The position numbers and the translations under genes were made by a program. 64,000 bases of DNA from Medicago truncatula (lineage: Eukaryota > Streptophyta > Magnoliopsida > Fabales > Fabaceae): assembly GCF_003473485.1 (NCBI RefSeq), contig NC_053045.1, forward strand, positions 7,776,501 to 7,840,500. Reading direction: 5' to 3'. The first letter of the stretch is position 1, and each line of letters begins with the position of its first letter. Shown here one piece after another: positions 10,853-41,449 of the stretch. The notes under the pieces were generated by a model. It had not been told where the DNA came from. It worked only from the letters and a program-made list of their open reading frames with translations, and ran no database searches.

Positions 10853-12392
10853 ATGGCCACTGTTGTTCTCCCTCTCAATCTGAATACCACTTCGTCTTTT
10901 CAATGTTCTCTTCCCACTCCAACCCAAATCACTTTCAAACATAGTAGTAGTAGAATCCAAAACTACAATTTCACTTCTCTCAAATTCAAACTCAAATCCA
11001 CCACCCTTTTCGTTCGTGCATCAGACCCAGATTCCAACCCTCAAACTCCCCAAAATGCTGAAGTCGACAATTTAGGAGTTCAAGCTGCTCTTTCCGTTTT
11101 GAGATTTTACAAAAGTAAGTTTTTTTCTTTACCCTTTCATTACTTCTGTTCATTTAAGTTATAAGTTGTTTTCATAAGTTACCTAGAAAAGCTTATTAAA
11201 ATAGTTTATCGACATGTCATTAGCTGTATCCATAAGTTTTCTAAAATAGTCTAACAAGTGCGTAGGCCTGTAGATAAACTCAAATAAATCAATCCAAACA
11301 GACCGACCCTTAGTAGCATTTGGTAGAGGATAGAACCGGGCAAGGAAACAAATCATAAGGGTTTTATTCAAGAGCAACTCTATAGATGGAGAACCTCTGG
11401 AAGATGATGAAGCTTTTGGATGAGAAAGAGAAGGAGGTTGGTGGTGGAAGACCAGAAACGATGACATCAATGGAAGAGAGTGGTTTACCTGAATGCTTTC
11501 AATGTTTAAGAGTCTATTTGTTTGAGACTGGAATTGGAATGAATGAAAAACGCAAAATTTGGCTTTTTGAGGAATTCTTTTTAAAAGCTCATATGTTGTT
11601 GTTACTTTGGTTGGAACTGATTTTGATATTGTTCATAAATCTTATAGAAACAAATTATAAGTCGGTTAATGATTATCAGAAATGGGCTAGGACCTCAGTC
11701 TTAGAAATGGTGAATATCTTTTATATGGGGTTGTTTGTGTGTGTAACTGGCTAACTGGTTCTGTAACTGTTAGCCTTTGATGTGACAGCTAAAGCCTCTA
11801 AGTCTCTGAATGTGTAACCGTCTTTCAGTTTGTAGTTGAGGACTTTGGCTTGACAGAGTATATTTCATAATGATTATTTGGTCTGAGACCAGGATCGGCA
11901 TTTGGTACTGGGCCATTGTGATCCTAAGATGATCTTTAAGAAAAGTAAAACAAGAAAGAAGACAAGTTGGTTTGTTTTTATGTCAAAGGCTACCTTAATT
12001 ATTGTAAACAGTTTTAGGAATTTGAGTCATTGTATCATATGTCTTGATGTTGTTCATGTATATGCAGGGGAAATTTCACCTATCTTGCCGAGGAGCTGTC
12101 GTTACGTTCCAACTTGCAGTGAGTATTCCATGGAGGCGTATAAGAGATATGGTTTCTTGAAGGGTACGACTTTGACTGTGTGGCGTCTATGTCGTTGCAA
12201 CCCTCTTGGTAATTCACCAGTACCTTTGATATGCCTTATCTGCTTATTTTTTATTTTAGTTTGGAATAATGGCTACATTTTCTGTTTTGAATATTTTATA
12301 ATTATATTCTGCATACAAATACAGGTGGGTCTGGATATGATCCTCCAAGATGGTTTGGTGAGAATAAACCAGGAGAAGAACTCGACGATTGA
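10853..12392 (+). CDS. Chloroplast YidD-like membrane-insertion efficiency factor
   Basis: Three exons: 10853-11114, 12068-12208 and 12325-12392, giving 156 residues. The first ~85 residues are Ser/Thr/Asn-rich with few acids, as expected of a plastid transit peptide. The rest is the compact YidD domain (formerly DUF37): LPRSCRYVPTCSEYSMEAYK, then GFLKGTTLTVWRLCRCNPLG and GGSGYDPP. In bacteria YidD helps the YidC insertase place proteins in the membrane. The plant form presumably works with the Alb3 system in plastids; that is inference. All the family's Cys residues (SCR, PTCS, CRCNP) are present. Exons 2 and 3 join as NPLG-GSGYDPPRWFGENKP. Open frames at 11183-11754 lie inside intron 1 and are not coding. 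Confidence 0.92.
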
Positions 12393-12838
12393 TTAATCTC
12401 TAGCGGAAGATTTTGAATTGGTAAGCACTGCCAACTGAGAATTTTATAAATTGAAGTTCATTTATGTTCTACTAGTGGGGGCTCCTTGTTGCTTTTCCTT
12501 TTTATTTCTGCTATGACCTTGTAACAATGCAAAGCAAGTTTGTGTTCTTAGATCCTACCCCATCAGATAAATTAGATCAGGAAGAATGATACCCGAGATT
12601 GGAATATTGTCGATGATGATCAAATTATATTCCTTTCATCTTTGTACATAAAATGAAAAGATGGTACAATGAATACCTTTTGTACATCTTTCAATATCAT
12701 ATGCTAGTAGTACTTCAATGAGGCAACCCTATTCAGTCCATCATGGAAATTCGTCTACGTAAGGAATGTCCTATTAGATAGGTTATACTAATCATACTGA
12801 GACACATGATTGGTGTAGATTGCCTTATATGAGAGGAA

Positions 12839-25554: not shown

Positions 25555-25975
25555 GTAATGTCTCCTTTTCAAAAATGAATGTAATGTGTGTCATGTCACA
25601 GTCTCAATAAAAAAAAAAAACAAAGTGAAATAGAAGAAACTACATTTTTTTGAGAGGAGAGAAGAAGACACCACTGGTCAGGATGTTTGTGCCTATTCCT
25701 GGAGCAAAACCTTGGTGTCTTAGCAGTTAGTATTAACAAAGAAATATGAATTACAACTACATTACTCTACTTATTCATGATTTTGATTGAGACATGAAAA
25801 ACCAGCTATGCATATCATTAAGATAACACATCTGAATCTGATGGAGACAAAAGAGGAAAGAAAAGTTCAATAACTTTAAGCAAGCTAAATGCTCTAACCA
25901 ATTTTGTCAACTAGACGAGTTACTTGTTCTGCAAGTTATCTATGTGTGAAATTCCTTCCTTCTTGTAGCTCCTTA
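25555..25975. other. Spacer between LINE tail and Harbinger-like element
   Basis: No gene recognised. Contains a short A-run near 25609-25620. Confidence 0.4.
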
Positions 25976-26189
25976 GGCTTTGTTTGTGAGTTTTGAGGCG
26001 AAGGAAAGGAAATGCTAAGGAGGGGAAGGGAAGGAAAGGGAGGGAAGGGAGAAGTAGGGAAAACCTTCTCCTTGTTTTGGAGTTAAAAAGCCAATAAGGT
26101 AAGGAGATGGAGGACTTATGTTATAATTTTACTATTTTACCCTTTTTCCTCTTAAAATCAATACATTTTTATATTTCGTAATTTAATTT

Positions 26190-27165
26190 TTAATTTATTC
26201 AAAACAACTTATCTCATGAAAAACAAATTATTACGATCTATTGTCAAAGTTTATTTTTAAAAAACAACTTATTTAAAAAAAAAAAAAAGCTTATTACAAT
26301 CACTTTTTAAAAACAACTTATTACGGCCACTTTTTAAAAAACAACTTATATTATGAAAAACATATTATTACGATCTTTTTTAAAAAAACAACTTATTCAA
26401 AACAGCTTATTTATACAAAACAGCTTATTATTACCTCTTTTAAAAAAAAACAGCTTATTCAAAATAGCTTAATACGATATCTTTTTCAAAAACTACTTAT
26501 TCAAAACAGCTTATTTATACAAAACAGCTTATTACGACCTCTTTTTCAAAAACAACTTATTCTAAACAGTTTATTAATGCAAAACAGCTTAATACAATCT
26601 CTTTTTCAAAAACAGCTTTTTTATACAAAACAACTTAATACGACCTCATTTTCTAAAAGCGCTTATTCAAAGCAGCTTATTTATACAAAACAGCTTATTA
26701 CGACATCTTTTTCAAAAACAACTTATTCTAAATAGCTTATTAATGCAAAACAGCTTAATACGATCTCTTTTTCAAAAACAGCTTATTCAACACAGCTTAT
26801 TTATACAAAACAGCTTAATTCGACCTCATTTCCTAAAACCGCTTATTCAAAACAGCTTATTACGACATCTTTTTCAAAAAGAGCTTATTCAAAACAGCTT
26901 ATTTATGCAAAACAGCTTAATACGATCTCTTTTCCAAAAATAGCTTATTCAAAACAACTTATTTATACAAAACAACTTAATATGACCTAATTTACTAAAA
27001 CCGCTTATTCGAAACAGCTTATTACGACCTTTTTTTCAAAAACAACTTATTACGACCTCATTTTCAAAAACCGCTTATTCAAAACAACTTATTTATACAA
27101 AACAGCTTATTACGACCTCATTTTTCAAAAACCGCTTATTCAAAACAACTTTTTTAATAAGGGAT
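26190..27165 (+). repeat. Left arm: tandem 60-bp repeats
   Basis: Units of close to 60 bp with the core AACAGCTTATTACGACCTC, then TTTTTCAAAAACAGCTTATT. They are degenerate towards the outer (left) end and regular from about 26460. At least three unit types alternate (GATCTCTTTTTC, GACCTCATTTTC with CCGCTTATTC, and GACATCTTTTTC). About 13-16 units, some shortened. Short open frames here (for example 26743-26943) arise because 60 is a multiple of three. Confidence 0.85.
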
Positions 27166-27184
27166 ATTCAAAACACCTGTTAGC

Positions 27185-28835
27185 TGATTTGAATAAGCTG
27201 TTTTTGAAAAAGAGATCGTAATAAGCTGTTTTGTATAAATAAGCTATTTTGAATAAGTTGTTTTTGAAAAAGATATTGTATTAAGTTGTTTTGCATAAAT
27301 AAGCTGTTTTGAATAATTTGTTTTTGAAAAAGAGATCGTATTCAGCTGTTTTGTATAAATAAACTGTTTTTGAAAAAGAGATCGTATTAAGCTGTTTTGC
27401 ATAAATAAGTTGTTTTGAATAAGCTCTTTTTGAAAATGAGGTCATATTAAGCTGTTTTGTATAAATAAGCTGTTTTGAATAAGCAATTTTTGAAAATGAA
27501 GTCGTAATAAGCTGTTTTGTATAAATAAATTGTTTTGAATAAGCAGTTTTTGAAAATGAGGTCGTAATAAGATGTTTTGTATAAATAAGCTGATTTGAAT
27601 AAGCTGTTTTTGAAAAAGAGGTCGTAATAAGCTGTTTTGTAAAAATAAGCTGTTTTGAATAAGCGGTTTTAGAAGATGAGGTAGTATTAAGCTGTTTTGT
27701 ATAAATAAACTATTTTGAATAAGTTGTTTTTGAAAAAGAGATCCTATTAAGCTGTTTTGCATAAATAAGCTGTTTTGAATAAGCTCTTTTTGATAAAGAG
27801 GTCGTAATATGTTGTTTTTTTATTTATAAATAAGCTGTTTTGAATAAGCGGATGTAGAAAATGAGGTCGTATTAAGCTGTTTTGTATAAATAAGTTGTTT
27901 TGAATAAGCTGTTTTTGTAAAAGAGATCGTATTAAGCTGTTTTGGTTAAATAAGTTGTTTTGAATAAGATGTTTTTGTAAAAGAGATCGTATTAAGCTGT
28001 TTTGCATAAATAAGTTGTTTTGAATAAGTTGTGTTTGAAAAAGAGGTCGTATTAAGCTGTTTTGCATAAATAAGTTGTTTTCAATATGCTGTTTTTGAAA
28101 ATGAGGTCGTAATAAGCTGTTTTGTATAAATAAGCTATTTTGAATAAGCTGTTTTTGAAAAAGAGATCGTATTAAGCTGTTTTGCGTAAATATGCTGTTT
28201 TGAATAAGCTGTTTTTGAAAAAGAGGTCGTTATAAGTTGTTTTGTATAAATAAGTTGTTTTGAATAAGCGGTTTTTGAAAATGAGGTCGTAATAAGCTGT
28301 TTTATATAAATAAGCAGTTTTGAATAAGCTGTTTTTAAAAAAGAGATCGTATTAAGTTGTTTTGCATAAATAAGTTGTTTTGAATAAGTTGTTTTTGAAA
28401 ATGAGGTTCCATGAAGCTGTTTTGTATAAATAAGTTGTTTTGAATAAGCGGTTTTTGAAAAAGAGATCGTATTAAGCTGTTTTGCATAAATAAGTTGTTT
28501 TGAATAAGCTCTTTTTGATAAAGAGGTCGTAATATGCTGTTTTTTTATTTATAAATAAGCTGTTTTGAATAAGCGGTTGTAGAAAATGAGGTCGTATTAA
28601 GCTGTTTTGTATAAATAAGTTGTTTTGAATAAGCTGTTTTTGTAAAAGATATCGTATTAAGCTGTTTTGCATAAATAAGTTGTTTTGAATATGCTGTTTT
28701 TGAAAATGAGGTCGTAATAAGTTGTTTTGTATAAATAAGTTGTTTTGAATAAGCGGTTTTTGAAAATGAGGTCGTAATAAGCTGTTTTGTATAAATATGT
28801 TGTTTTGAATAAGTTGTTTTTAAAAAAAGAGTGTA
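27185..28835 (-). repeat. Right arm: the same 60-bp repeat inverted
   Basis: About 27 units of 60 bp in opposite orientation to the left arm (plus-strand core GAATAAGCTGTTTTTGAAAA, then GAGATCGTATTAAGCTG). Periodicity is exact over long runs. Two units carry the same 5-bp expansion (TTTTTTTATTTATAAATAAG) near 27815 and 28540, about 725 bp apart, showing that a block of about 12 units was itself duplicated. The two arms meet near 27165-27185 with almost no spacer. Confidence 0.85.
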
Positions 28836-29157
28836 ATAATTTTAGTAATGTCTAAAATTGGAATTTTGAATTATTAAGAGGGCAAAATTGTCAATTTGTA
28901 TGTTTAACCCCCCAAAACCCCCCAATTTGGGGGAACTTTAAAATTGGACAAATGAAGCCCTTCAAAACCCCCCAAAACCTTTCCCTTGTTTTTTTAAAAC
29001 TCACAAACAAGGGTTTACCACTCCTAAACGTTTCCTTCCCTTCCCCTCCCCTCCAAAACCCAACTCGCAAACAAAGCCTTAAGGTCAAGCATATTATCAT
29101 TTCCTTCCAATTTTTGTTATCATTCAATATTAGTTAATGGTTTGTTATTGATAATAA

Positions 29158-29844: not shown

Positions 29845-31445
29845 TCACCACACTAGTGATGATAAATCATCATCAACATATGGGAACAAGTTGGGCAAGT
29901 CAGAAAAAGTGTTGCTCATAATGTCGGATTCACCAATTTCCATCCAATGCTGTTGTGCATCGCAATTGTCGCGACATTGTGTGGCTGAATTCAGGAGAAA
30001 ACTCTGGTCCTGCTCCGGCAGTGAGTGAGTAGCTTCTAAGCTAAATTTTGTCTCAAAAGGACTCTTCTTTGATTTTTTCATCCTACCTTTTGTATCTTCA
30101 GTTGAGCTCTTTAAATAATTTCTATACTTCTGCAAAACAATATAGCAGTTACAATGTTAATAATAATACTAGCTCCATAAATTTCAGTTTAAAATCACAC
30201 AAAATTGAACACAAGTAGTATATTATCAACAAGAGGATATATAGAAGCTAATGGAGAAATACTTATATTCTATTCTAAAACTCAGACTTCAGCATCTGCC
30301 AAGACTGCAGAATTCACTACTTTACAACCTCAATAGTTTTAATAACATGCAAGACTAAGGTATAAACAACATACATGATTTACAACAACAGAATTAGGTA
30401 AAAGATAACTGTCAAACCTAGGCAACTATAGACTTAGGTAAAATATATCAAATTTACAGAATCAACAAAAATGAACCTGTAAATGGCTAGCAACATGTTG
30501 TTTTGTAACATCGGGAACATCCATGATTTTCTGAATCTTTTTTGGCGTTGCCCCTGAAAAATAAGAGAAAAACATCACATAAGTTCAGCTGTTGAAGAAT
30601 GCAACAAAGCATAGTAATAAAAGCAATTAGGAAAGAATCATACTATCAAGGCCTAGTTGATTGACAGCATATAGAAACCGCTGATGCAGTTCTGGCGACC
30701 AAGACAAACGGGCCTTCTTTGCAAGTGTTTCTTTTGAGGCATCAGCATCTTCTCTACCCCGTTTTCTACATTCTTGAACCACCAAGCTTCCAACAATTTC
30801 ATATTCTTTATTTTCAGTCGAACCGTTTCTTACAACATGTTGCCACATTATCTTGACCTCTTCTTCAGCCAAAGGCTTAGTCCAATATGTGCAAGCCCCA
30901 CATTCAATAGACTTCATAATAGAACTTTTTGTGGAATCAACAGCCATCACTACATAATAGAAATAGAAATAATAATGTAAGTTCACACTTATTAAGTACA
31001 TATATATGAATGAATCATGTGAATTGTGTAAAGTTGAAGAAATTCTTACTAATGACAGGAATTTTGAGTAGTAGGGTAACATGTTGGACAAAGTCATAAA
31101 CATCCATGTTTGGCATATGAGCATCAATCAACATTACATCAAAACAGTCCTTTCTTTCCATCGAATTCAAGGCATCAGAAGCTGTATTGCATTTGGTAAC
31201 TGAAATAAACAAACATATAAAAATATACATAAGAATAAACAAACAAACAAACAAACATGAAAAAACATAAAAGTAAGAACATAGAAACTTTAGAATTGAA
31301 TAATGTGCAATTAACTAAGTAACAAACCTTGGTAATGATATCGATTACACATCTCCTCAATAGAGTTGAGGAAAGTGATGTCATGATCAATTGCAATAAC
31401 CTTGAGACCGGCTGGGAATGATGGGTTGTCAGTGAAAACCGCCAT
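29845..31445 (-). CDS. Type-B-like two-component response regulator, copy A
   Basis: Five exons in transcript order: 31328-31445, 31050-31199, 30644-30949, 30477-30553 and 29845-30129, coding 311 residues. The receiver domain (about 14-125) has VIAIDHDITFL, phospho-acceptor Asp in LIDAHMPNMD (D65), and Lys in YWTKP (K114). A basic stretch follows (ECRKRGREDADASK), then a GARP/Myb-like DNA-binding domain (LSWSPELHQRFLYAVNQLGL, then DVPDVTKQHVASHLQKYRNY). Type-B regulators are nuclear factors that activate cytokinin-response genes when phosphorylated by AHPs. Two receiver positions are unusual: the second acidic pocket residue is His (D-H-D) and the usual Ser/Thr switch is Ala (IMMAVDS). The C-terminal activation region is far shorter than in classical ARR-B proteins. 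Copy B lies at 36838-38223. Confidence 0.9.
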
Positions 31446-31980: not shown

Positions 31981-32692
31981 TTAATTGTTGAGTTTTTTAA
32001 TTACACTCTATTTAATCCTGATTGCACCTCAAAATTACAAAATTATCCCTTCCATAAAATTTAATTTTCAAAAAGCATCTTTCTTTTTTCTTGGTTACGT
32101 CCTAATATACCTCTTTAGTTTAAGTAGGTCATGTAAACTGAGTTTAAGTGTACATCTAAAAGTTCAACAACCTTGTTCAATGATTATACGTAGGTCATGT
32201 AAACTTAGTTTAAGTAGGTCATGTAAACTGAGTTTAAGTGTACATACTTAAACTCAGTTTAAGTAGGTTATGTAAATTAAGTTTAAGTAGATTATGTAAA
32301 CTAAGTTTACATGAACCTACTTAAACTGAATTTAAGTTAATCTCAACAATGTAAAATTGAAACTGTCGTACAGTACAGTTGAACAAGAAGAAGAAAATTG
32401 AAACCAACGTTATTGAAAAAGAAGAAAAAATTCACTTATTTATATGCAATCGAGTATGAATGAAAGATGTTTTGATCCACTTTTTAATCTTCCATAGAGA
32501 TTAATTAAACATCAGGATTGTTTGATCGTTGGTGGGTGAAAGAGAGTGAAATTTTAGAGTGACAATGAATGAAATCAAGATTTTAATTTTTTTTATATAA
32601 AAGGATAATTTTAGTATTATAAAAAACTTTTTTAAAAAAACTGGGTGTAACCAGAAGTATATAGGGTGTGAATAGAAAAACTCTTAATTGTT
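31981..32692. mobile_element. Non-autonomous MULE element with 9-bp target duplication
   Basis: The element is 31990-32683 (694 bp). Ends: GAGTTTTTTAATTACACTC and, inward from the right, GAGTTTTTCTATTCACACCC; similarity continues for about 38 bp. TTAATTGTT stands exactly at 31981-31989 and 32684-32692. Inside is a short tandem array of GTAAACT(G/T)AGTTTAAGT words (about 32120-32335), several of them palindromic. No coding capacity. The relatives at 39876-40131 and 40458-41440 share the right-half sequence. Confidence 0.75.
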
Positions 32693-36837: not shown

Positions 36838-38223
36838 TTAGGCCATGAGATTGTGAAGGTAGGATCCCGTCCCGCAGTCAATCCACTCAGCTAGAAAGTC
36901 GTCATTCCGGTCTTGATCAGCCAGCTCAGTTTGAATTAGGTTATCATTCCGGTCTTGATCGATCGACTTAGTTTGAAAGTCATAACTATGAACCTTGTCG
37001 ATCCACTCGGCTTGAAAGCTATCACTCCACTTTGATTTTGTCCTCCCACGTTTTGTTTCATCAGCCGATCTTTTCAAATGAATCCTATATTTCTGTCAAA
37101 TGACATTGCAATCAAAATTTTAACAATAATACTCCACAAGTTTCAATTTCAAATCACACAAAACACATGTAGTATATTATTAATAATTCAAATAGACTCC
37201 TTGGTCAAAAAAAAAAAAAAAAAAATTCAAATAGACTCCTTCCAAAAACAAACCTGTAAATGACTAGCAACATGTCCTACTCTCAAACCAGGAACATCCA
37301 TAATTTTGAGAATCATTTTGGGTCTTGCTTCTGAAAAATAAGTGAGATAAAAATGCACATAAGTTGAGTTGTTAAATAAAACAAACAAAGTAAAGAAAAG
37401 AATTAGGAAAGAATCATACTATCAAGGCCTAGTTGATTGACTGCACATAGAAACTGCTGATGCAGTTCTGGCGACCAAGACAAACAGGTCTTCTTTGCAA
37501 GTGTTTCTTTTGAGGCATTAGCATCTTCTCTACCCCGTTTTCTACATTCTTGAACCACCAAGCTTCCAACAATTTCATATTTATTTTCAGTCGAACCGTT
37601 TCTTACAACATGTTGCCACATGATCTTGACCTCTTCTTCAGCCAAAGGCTTAGTCCAATATGTGCAAGCCCCAGATTCAATAGACTTCATAATAGAACTT
37701 TTTGTGGAATCAACAGCCATCACTAAAAATAAGAAATAATAATGTCAGTTCACGCTTCTTAAGTACATAAATATGAATGATACATTTGAAATGTGTACTG
37801 ATGACTTTCAACTTAAAGTTGAAGAAATTCTTACTAATAACAGGAATGTTGAGTTGTAGGGTAGCATTTTGGACAAAGTCATAGACATCCATGTTCGGCA
37901 TATGAGCATCAATCAACATTACATCATAACAGTCCTTTCTTTCCAACAAGTACAAAGCATCAGAAGCTGAATTGCATTTGGTAACTGAAATAAACAAACA
38001 TAAAAATATACATAAGCAAGCATGAACAAGCAAACATGAAAATACATAAAATAAGAACAAACACACTTTAGAATTGAATAAGGTGCAATTAACTGAGTAA
38101 CTAACCTTGATAATGATATCGATTACACATATCCTCAATAGTGTTAAGAACAATGATGTCATGATCAATGGCAATAACCCTTAGACCAGCAGGGAATGAT
38201 GGGTTGTCAACGAAACGGGCCAT
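36838..38223 (-). CDS. Type-B-like two-component response regulator, copy B
   Basis: Same five-exon plan as copy A: 38106-38223, 37835-37984, 37420-37722, 37254-37330 and 36838-37092, coding 300 residues. Exons 1, 2 and 4 have exactly the lengths of copy A's (118, 150 and 77 nt), and exon 3 is one codon shorter. The receiver again has VIAIDHDI, LIDAHMPNMD, IMMAVDS and YWTKP. The GARP domain is more diverged (LSWSPELHQQFLCAVNQLGL, then ARPKMILKIMDVPGLRVGHVASHLQ). The final exon has changed completely: it encodes KYRIHLKRSADETKRG and then a charged tail built from repeated (D)QDRND and AEWID units. Intron 4 holds an A-tail insertion at 37185-37241. The preserved frame and splice sites suggest it is still expressed; loss of GARP contacts is possible. 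Confidence 0.87.
37185..37241 (+). repeat. 18-bp duplication flanking a bare A-tail insertion in an intron
   Basis: AATTCAAATAGACTCCTT occurs exactly at 37185-37202 and 37224-37241. The 21 bases between are GGTC followed by an A-run of 17. This looks like target-primed insertion of little more than a poly(A) tail. It lies in intron 4 of response regulator B and is absent from the matching intron of copy A. Confidence 0.7.
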
Positions 38224-40448: not shown

Positions 40449-41449
40449 TTTAGAAAAGACTGTTGCTAGTCACATCCAAAAAAAAATAAATTACATCTTA
40501 GAATGATTAATATACCCTTTAACTAAAATAAAAATTTCAAATTAACTAAATTTACATTAACGTAAATTGAACATAAGTAAACTTAATTTACATTAACATA
40601 AATTGAATATAAGTAAACTTAATTTACATTAACCTAGATTGAATGTAAGTAAACTGAATTTACAAACTTAATTTACATTAACCTAGATTGAACGTAAGTA
40701 AACTGAATTTACACTAACCTCTTATATACATACATACGTAAACTAAATTTACATTAACCTAAATTGAACATAAGTAAACTTAATTTACATTAACCTAGAT
40801 TGAACGTAAGTAAATTGAATTTACAAACTGAATTTACATTAACCTAGATTGAACGTAAGTAAACTGAATTTACATTAACCTAAATTGAACATAAGTAAAC
40901 TTAATTTACATTAACCTAGATTGAACGTAAGTAAACTTAATTTACAGTAACCTCTTATATACATACGTAAACTAAATTTACATTAACCTAAATTGAACGT
41001 AAGTAAACTGAATTTACACTAACCTAAATTGAACATACGTAAACTTGAATTTACATTAACCTACATACGTAAACTACACTAACCCCTTTTATATACATAC
41101 ACGTAAACTTAATTTACACTAACCTCTCACTTAAAATCAAATTGAGAGACATATCTCATACCAAAACAAACAATAAACAAATAGAAACTCATCGAAAATG
41201 AAATTCATGAAATTCACTAACCTTTATGAATATAGTACAGATCAATAACAAAGATGTTGATTCAGATATTTGTTGCACATCTATGGTGATTTGTGGATGA
41301 AAGGGGGTAAAGATTCAGAATGATCATAAAAGATGAGTTTTTAAAAATTTACATGAAGAGGACAATTTTGGTATTATTGTAAAATTTTAAATAAATTTGG
41401 ATGTAACTTATTTTTTTTTTGGGTGTGACTAGCACCAGTCTTTAGAAAA
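40449..41449. mobile_element. Non-autonomous MULE element with internal minisatellite
   Basis: The element is 40458-41440 (983 bp). Ends: GACTGTTGCTAGTCACATCC and, inward from the right, GACTGGTGCTAGTCACACCC. The match extends about 40 bp to TTACATC. TTTAGAAAA stands exactly at 40449-40457 and 41441-41449, a 9-bp duplication as in Mutator-like elements. About 40530-41110 is a tandem array of a ~36-bp unit (CATTAACCTAGATTGAACGT then AAGTAAACTGAATTTA) with variable spacing. No coding capacity. The exact duplication suggests fairly recent insertion. Confidence 0.8.

Follow-up and report, generated by a model that had tools for sequence, protein, structure and literature searches.

A 64,000-bp stretch of Medicago truncatula DNA (contig NC_053045.1, positions 7,776,501 to 7,840,500 of the forward strand; hereafter the window) carries a transposable element, the focal copy (25976-29078, 3,103 bp), in which two arrays of a 60-bp unit lie head to head in opposite orientation between terminal inverted repeats (TIRs). 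Judged by its sequence, the focal copy fits a non-autonomous, foldback-form member of the PIF/Harbinger subfamily MtPH-A6-4. We consider it likely that the inverted form goes back to one founder, in which a second, inverted array was joined on and the coding interior was lost, and that this form then spread and underwent block changes within its arms. The preliminary description had regarded the structure as unusual; as a kind, however, it is already in print, having been described in 2007 (Grzebelus et al. 2007, PMC2213677).

A common breakpoint in the palindromic copies

The genome (429.9 Mb, 42 contigs) was searched with the left end of the focal copy and its first left units, and the best 40 of 497 candidates, nearly full-length matches, were taken. 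Thirty of them were examined (the focal copy, 20 in L010-L028 and nine in L033-L041); five lay on contig C15 and were treated apart (three within the stretch read), and five further matches were not in the sample. When oriented by their ends, 27 of the 30 copies, on eight large contigs, were palindromic, with the left array on the minus strand and the right array on the plus strand, a share that was biased upwards as the query contained the left end and left array. A scripted check found identical 3-bp TTA or TAA duplications around 20 of the 27, the focal copy included, and L036 was a 21st by eye, its last base being mutated. Other TTA-flanked copies with array interiors, which the preliminary description had put forward as supporting evidence, were indeed present. 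L014, L022 and L026 lacked the palindromic form and did not enter the unit and centre counts. Left arrays spanned 8.1-28.9 unit lengths (the longest, in L034, includes a gap of ~660 bp; the next spans 26.4), and right arrays of the palindromic copies 2.6-28.2.

In the first 18 palindromic copies aligned, coding-type sequence, followed inward from the right end, gave way to array at the same place. A 38-bp pattern across this right join was found within 2 edits in 25 of the 27 palindromic copies and in none of three coding copies, and all 25 palindromic copies with a recognisable right end had the one breakpoint between array and right end. Genome-wide, with up to 3 mismatches, the join gave 75 matches (41 + 34) and its reversed control none; an extra base kept the focal copy out of the 75. 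The coding-type right end gave five matches, again with none for the control. The presence of one breakpoint in the palindromes, its absence from the coding copies and the genome-wide counts of 75 and 5 make one founder probable. The inverted form was thus probably made in a single founder that gained the second inverted array and then spread by transposition.

The ends of the copies pointed in the same direction. Those of 23 palindromic copies had a mean pairwise difference of 5.7% (1.8-8.9%) and differed from their consensus by 3.1%. A tree of ends from 23 of the 27 palindromic copies (without L020, L035, L037 and L041) and two coding copies was star-like and mostly poorly resolved, while the palindromic copies were split from the two coding copies with support of 100. 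A burst from one founder explains both the star-like tree and the divergence of the ends. If sites are assumed to change at a rate of the order of 1e-8 per year, this burst would be about 3 million years old.

Coding relatives of the palindromes were obtained by a transposase domain search together with the list of TIRs (L030, L031 and L032) and by a protein search (L042, read in part at its array end). L030 (4,390 bp) and L032 (4,742 bp) each lie between TTA duplications, and the frames of L030 matched DDE_Tnp_4 and, downstream, Myb_DNA-bind_3. In L030, L032 and L042 the 60-bp array was present at one end only, the end equivalent to the left end of the focal copy. Their array-less end was 89-90% identical to the right terminal 227 bp of the focal copy and continued toward the transposase without units. 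L031 was set aside as evidence of sidedness, as it had transposase and orf1 frames but neither an end nor a unit at threshold in the stretch read. Neither the one-sided coding copies nor the common palindrome breakpoint was seen in the text of PMC2213677, and together they apparently add to the published account. Elsewhere, at G000:C5:27799616-27802043, the L030 transposase had two matches of 79-80% identity within 2.5 kb; these fragments lie on opposite strands, and each contains stop codons.

Arms and centres of the palindromes

The 745 units compared came from the 27 palindromic copies; those of the same arm differed by 12.5% both within a copy and between copies, and those of different arms by 13.0-13.1%. 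The equality of the within-copy and between-copy differences argued against strong local homogenisation. Of these units, 530 had their nearest neighbour in another copy but on the same arm (358 expected) and 158 in another copy on the opposite arm (357 expected); within the same copy, the neighbour belonged to the same arm for 45 units (15 expected) and to the opposite one for 11 (15 expected). These counts indicated that the two arms have remained separate from the spread onward and that some duplication within arms is recent. Near-identical blocks within copies were also seen directly, one of 725 bp in the right arm of the focal copy and others elsewhere. Change in the arms took the form of block duplication inside an arm; no exchange between the two arms was detected.

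The commonest centre between the arms, type A, was recognised within 5 edits in 14 of 28 centres (those of the 27 copies and of a copy on C15). Its orientation relative to the ends was constant, although for L040 the two orientations differed by one edit only. A 37-bp type A pattern gave 16 matches genome-wide and none in the control, and type A was present in basal branches of the weakly supported end tree. The focal copy and three others (Table 1) had a second type, B, making four of the 27. An early impression that the centre had flipped from arm to arm was dropped, as recognisable centres of types A and B all point the same way once the copies are oriented by their ends.

Proposed origin and alternative readings

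The founder account would start from a coding element with the 60-bp array at one end only, on the orf1 side. The array-less right end would then have been joined, ~230-240 bp in, to a second, opposite array, most likely through a template switch or through end joining as an excision gap was being repaired, and with this join the coding interior would have been lost, leaving two arrays head to head. Having kept two good ends, the founder could have been mobilised by transposase from coding copies and would have spread to at least 75 places. Multi-unit blocks would later have been duplicated or lost within each arm, and the centre altered in some lineages. Since each transposition carries the inversion along, the arms would remain inverted. 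The preliminary description had asked how the array grew while staying inverted, and this was answered in part: the inversion appears to have been made once and inherited, and growth proceeded by blocks within arms, while the mechanism of the founder join is what we infer.

Several observations weigh against this account, besides the bias of the sample. L035 and L041 were palindromic but had no recognisable right end and no join pattern, and no intermediate between the one-sided and palindromic forms was found among the copies examined. Ten of the 27 centres fit neither type A nor type B, and around type A the arms were not mirror images unit by unit. Coding ends differed from palindromic ends by 9.9% (the two coding copies of the tree being 2.4% apart), which makes the coding copies relatives and not proven sources; past movers of the palindromes may therefore not be among the copies read. 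The 24 full units of the three coding arrays were 12.9% from right arms and 13.9% from left arms, and 16 of the 24 had their nearest neighbour in a right arm (right-arm units are 398 of the 745). The coding array thus stands at the left-type end yet is closer to the right arms, which simple descent of the left arm does not predict.

Empty sites likewise gave no help to the founder account. For the focal copy, for which the preliminary description had named an empty site as a check, none was found with the joined flanks in the same genome: the four matches were its own two flanks and two partial matches elsewhere, none across the join. With the joined flanks of L013, only the right flank was covered besides its own flanks (best 40 of 1,135 candidates). 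For L039, a nearby paralogue without the element had ACTACTAAAAT at the site and diverged a few bases on (best 40 of 517 candidates). This paralogue is degenerate, and no clean empty site was counted for the focal copy, L013 or L039. Five paralogous empty sites are known for non-autonomous MtPH-A6-4 members (PMC2213677).

A tentative and rather unlikely proposal is that the second inverted array was itself advantageous. If its units are bound by the Myb-like orf1 protein or by the transposase, the added array would have made the founder a better substrate, and the founder would have overtaken the coding form. The numbers behind this proposal are the copies with the founder join (at least 75) against those with the coding-type right end (five), and a parallel proposal exists for the repeats of Galileo and Tetris (PMC4079207). 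However, TIR-pattern ends within 2 mismatches numbered 772 genome-wide (three for the reversed pattern), or at most ~386 two-ended copies, against 75 founder breakpoints, and non-coding relatives without the founder breakpoint therefore seem numerous.

Plain internal deletion, in which coding elements once had two inverted arrays and every palindrome arose independently by losing the coding interior through abortive gap repair, appears unlikely. Elements with repeats in both subterminal regions have been described, abortive gap repair was invoked in 2007 for MtPH-A6-4 rearrangements (PMC2213677), and the centres do vary between copies. On the other hand, the three coding copies judged (of five coding-type right ends) had an array at one end only, with a right end that ran on toward the transposase free of units, and independent deletions would not give one type of centre, in one orientation, in half of the centres. 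Simple deletion in a one-sided element cannot give the right join either, as the units read in the same sense inward from both ends, the opposite of the outcome of a deletion.

Fold-back copying, in which a nascent strand turned back on its own array and copied the left arm directly into an inverted right arm, is in our judgement quite unlikely. As this reading would have it, there is hardly any spacer in the commonest centre, around which the arms of several copies are nearly in the same unit phase. Exact fold-back copying and local homogenisation were both looked for, and neither was clear, except that around type A the equal-distance unit pair was the closest of its row at two of eight ranks, namely the 7th and the 8th. 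For the three innermost ranks, by contrast, equal-distance pairs were no more alike than others (differences of 0.135-0.157), although the innermost left unit showed clear positional memory between copies (0.083). This weak equal-distance likeness favoured the joining of two arrays, or an older copy, over a fresh fold-back copy. A second event would also be needed to supply the different right end.

Going by the copies examined, an assembly artefact or an ordinary satellite is highly improbable, for although long inverted arrays are error-prone in assemblies and the unplaced contig C15 carries a degraded copy in a ~3.2-kb tandem array, 27 of the 30 copies had the same arrangement, with their arrays inside palindromes, on eight large contigs, 20 of them between identical duplications, and in the three non-palindromic matches the array adjoined a left end. 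The 2007 survey, which searched BAC sequences, had met opposite arrays there too (PMC2213677).

The focal copy, its family and its surroundings

The preliminary description gave the coordinates of the 3.1-kb element exactly and named its TTA duplication (Table 1), with GGCTTTGTTTG ends as the boundaries of the element. It placed two opposite arrays of roughly 1.0 and 1.65 kb, meeting near 27165-27185, which was accurate: they measured 941 and 1,616 bp with a 51-bp centre between them, together ~42.6 unit lengths. A profile of the 60-bp unit, made from 22 right-arm units of the focal copy, gave 45 matches, 18 on the minus strand in the left array and 27 on the plus strand in the right. The AAACNNCTTATT motif had 68 exact matches over both strands and none in the first 215 or last 225 bp, and the array-free terminal stretches were ~225 bp per side. 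The term giant palindrome held for the overall form, the best inverted self-match scoring 1,691 bits against a maximum of 50 in 50 dinucleotide shuffles, but the arms are imperfect, with a mean unit difference of ~12.5% within an arm over the 27 copies. The predicted fold of an RNA of the whole element reached -1,334 kcal/mol, compared with -601 to -630 for five shuffles, and 825 of its 1,217 pairs were arm to arm. As modelled, a whole-element transcript could form long double-stranded RNA, a capacity that does not imply production.

The view of the element as Harbinger-like agreed with its TIR, duplication and repeats, which fit MtPH-A6-4. The published 17-bp TIR of this subfamily is 5' GGCTTTGTTTGCGAGTT 3' (Grzebelus et al. 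2007, PMC2213677), which the focal copy has exactly on the right and with one mismatch on the left, together with the 3-bp TTA/TAA duplication. Imperfect 60-bp repeats with a triplicated AAACNNCTTATT motif, in 2-35 units, were reported in 18 of 23 published members. They occupy a single subterminal region or both, then in opposite orientation, and in extreme members fill nearly all the space between the TIRs; 27 further sites were reported besides the 23 members (PMC2213677). The focal copy shares the TIR, the duplication, the imperfect repeats with their motif and the opposite arrays, its long inverted arms of tandem repeats being those of a foldback; its ~42.6 unit lengths, and the ~54.6 of L037, lie beyond the published range. 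The published coding core is 4,699 bp, with the transposase followed by orf1 (PMC2213677), and L030 and L032 had the same kind of ends, with a DDE transposase match followed by the orf1 frame in L030. Apart from PMC2213677, no paper on the MtPH family was recognised among the literature matches listed.

Table 1. Features of the focal copy, in window coordinates
Feature	Coordinates	Strand	Remarks
Left target-site duplication TTA	25973..25975		
Left TIR	25976..25992	+	1 mismatch to published 17-bp MtPH-A6-4 consensus (position 12: T for C)
Left terminal domain	25976..26199	+	first 215 bp free of exact repeat motifs; resembles array-bearing end of L030, L032, L042 (coding copies; L042 partial) at 86-88%
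Left array, 60-bp unit	26200..27140	-	~15.7 unit lengths
Palindrome centre	27141..27191		type B, as in L011, L019 and L016 (by eye)
Right array, 60-bp unit inverted	27192..28807	+	~26.9 unit lengths
725-bp block duplication in right arm	27501..28825	+	27501-28100 vs same stretch +725; 98% over best 200 bp, from 27745
Founder breakpoint, right array to right terminal domain	28808..28846	-	join itself near 28835-28845
Right terminal domain	28852..29078	+	89-90% like array-less end of coding copies L030, L032, L042
Right TIR	29062..29078	-	exact match to published 17-bp consensus
Right target-site duplication TTA	29079..29081		

Tourist miniature inverted-repeat transposable elements (MITEs) belong to the PIF/Harbinger superfamily and have a TTA/TAA duplication, but they are a few hundred bp long and without long arrays; the 3,103-bp size of the focal copy rules out a Tourist MITE. 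A Mutator or P foldback, with a duplication of 7-11 bp and a MULE or P transposase, was ruled out by the 3-bp duplication and by DDE_Tnp_4 in a coding relative. Drosophila FB elements have inverted ends of short tandem repeats, whereas the focal copy is PIF/Harbinger.

Similar structures were described in other Drosophila elements. Galileo likewise has long inverted ends, extended by internal direct tandem repeats in some copies, and arms of unequal length, but unlike the present family it belongs to the P superfamily and makes 7-8-bp duplications (PMC4168063). In D. willistoni, direct tandem repeats were found in the ends of 1 of 191 Galileo copies (PMC4168063), whereas most of MtPH-A6-4 has them. 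Tetris, a foldback of D. virilis, likewise has inverted ends that hold internal tandem repeats, of ~220 bp (PMC4079207). Its repeats seed satellite arrays elsewhere and a transposase source was not found (PMC4079207); the MtPH-A6-4 arrays read here lay inside elements or beside one end, and coding relatives are present.

Two further loci showed unusual arrangements. Around 3727-3731 of L041, two elements of the family abut and have one TTA in common, as if one had inserted into the target duplication of the other. In L029 (G000:C15:1-10000), a tandem array at the start of the contig contained a palindromic copy whose right end was not recognisable. This array extends up to ~33.7 kb in repeats of ~3.2-3.3 kb that are 97-99.5% alike over 2.6-3.2 kb, and a 626-bp flank of the L029 copy has nine nearly complete recurrences and a partial one, the later of them ~4.2-4.3 kb apart. 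The C15 array looks like a transposon captured in a young macrosatellite.

Elsewhere in the window, AT-rich tandem arrays at 32117-32337 (units of ~24/73 bp) and 40544-41063 (units of ~36/161 bp) were by eye unrelated to the 60-bp unit. A minus-strand frame at 30627-31127, about 1.5 kb from the end of the element, had no Pfam match but has a look that we take to be GARP-like, and another at 37710-38174 (minus) had a weak Response_reg match below the cut-off; both look like pieces of type-B response-regulator genes. A frame at 11902-12396 carried a YidD domain (PF01809, 77.8 bits), in a plant nuclear contig; this family is best known from bacteria.

Our findings turn the question of array growth into a two-step account, one founder join followed by block duplication within arms. 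In a plant, and alongside coding relatives in one genome, they document in PIF/Harbinger a structure known best from the foldbacks of Drosophila. The resulting set of long, often nearly spacer-free palindromes offers material for asking how stable such DNA is and whether small interfering RNA (siRNA) pathways are fed by it.
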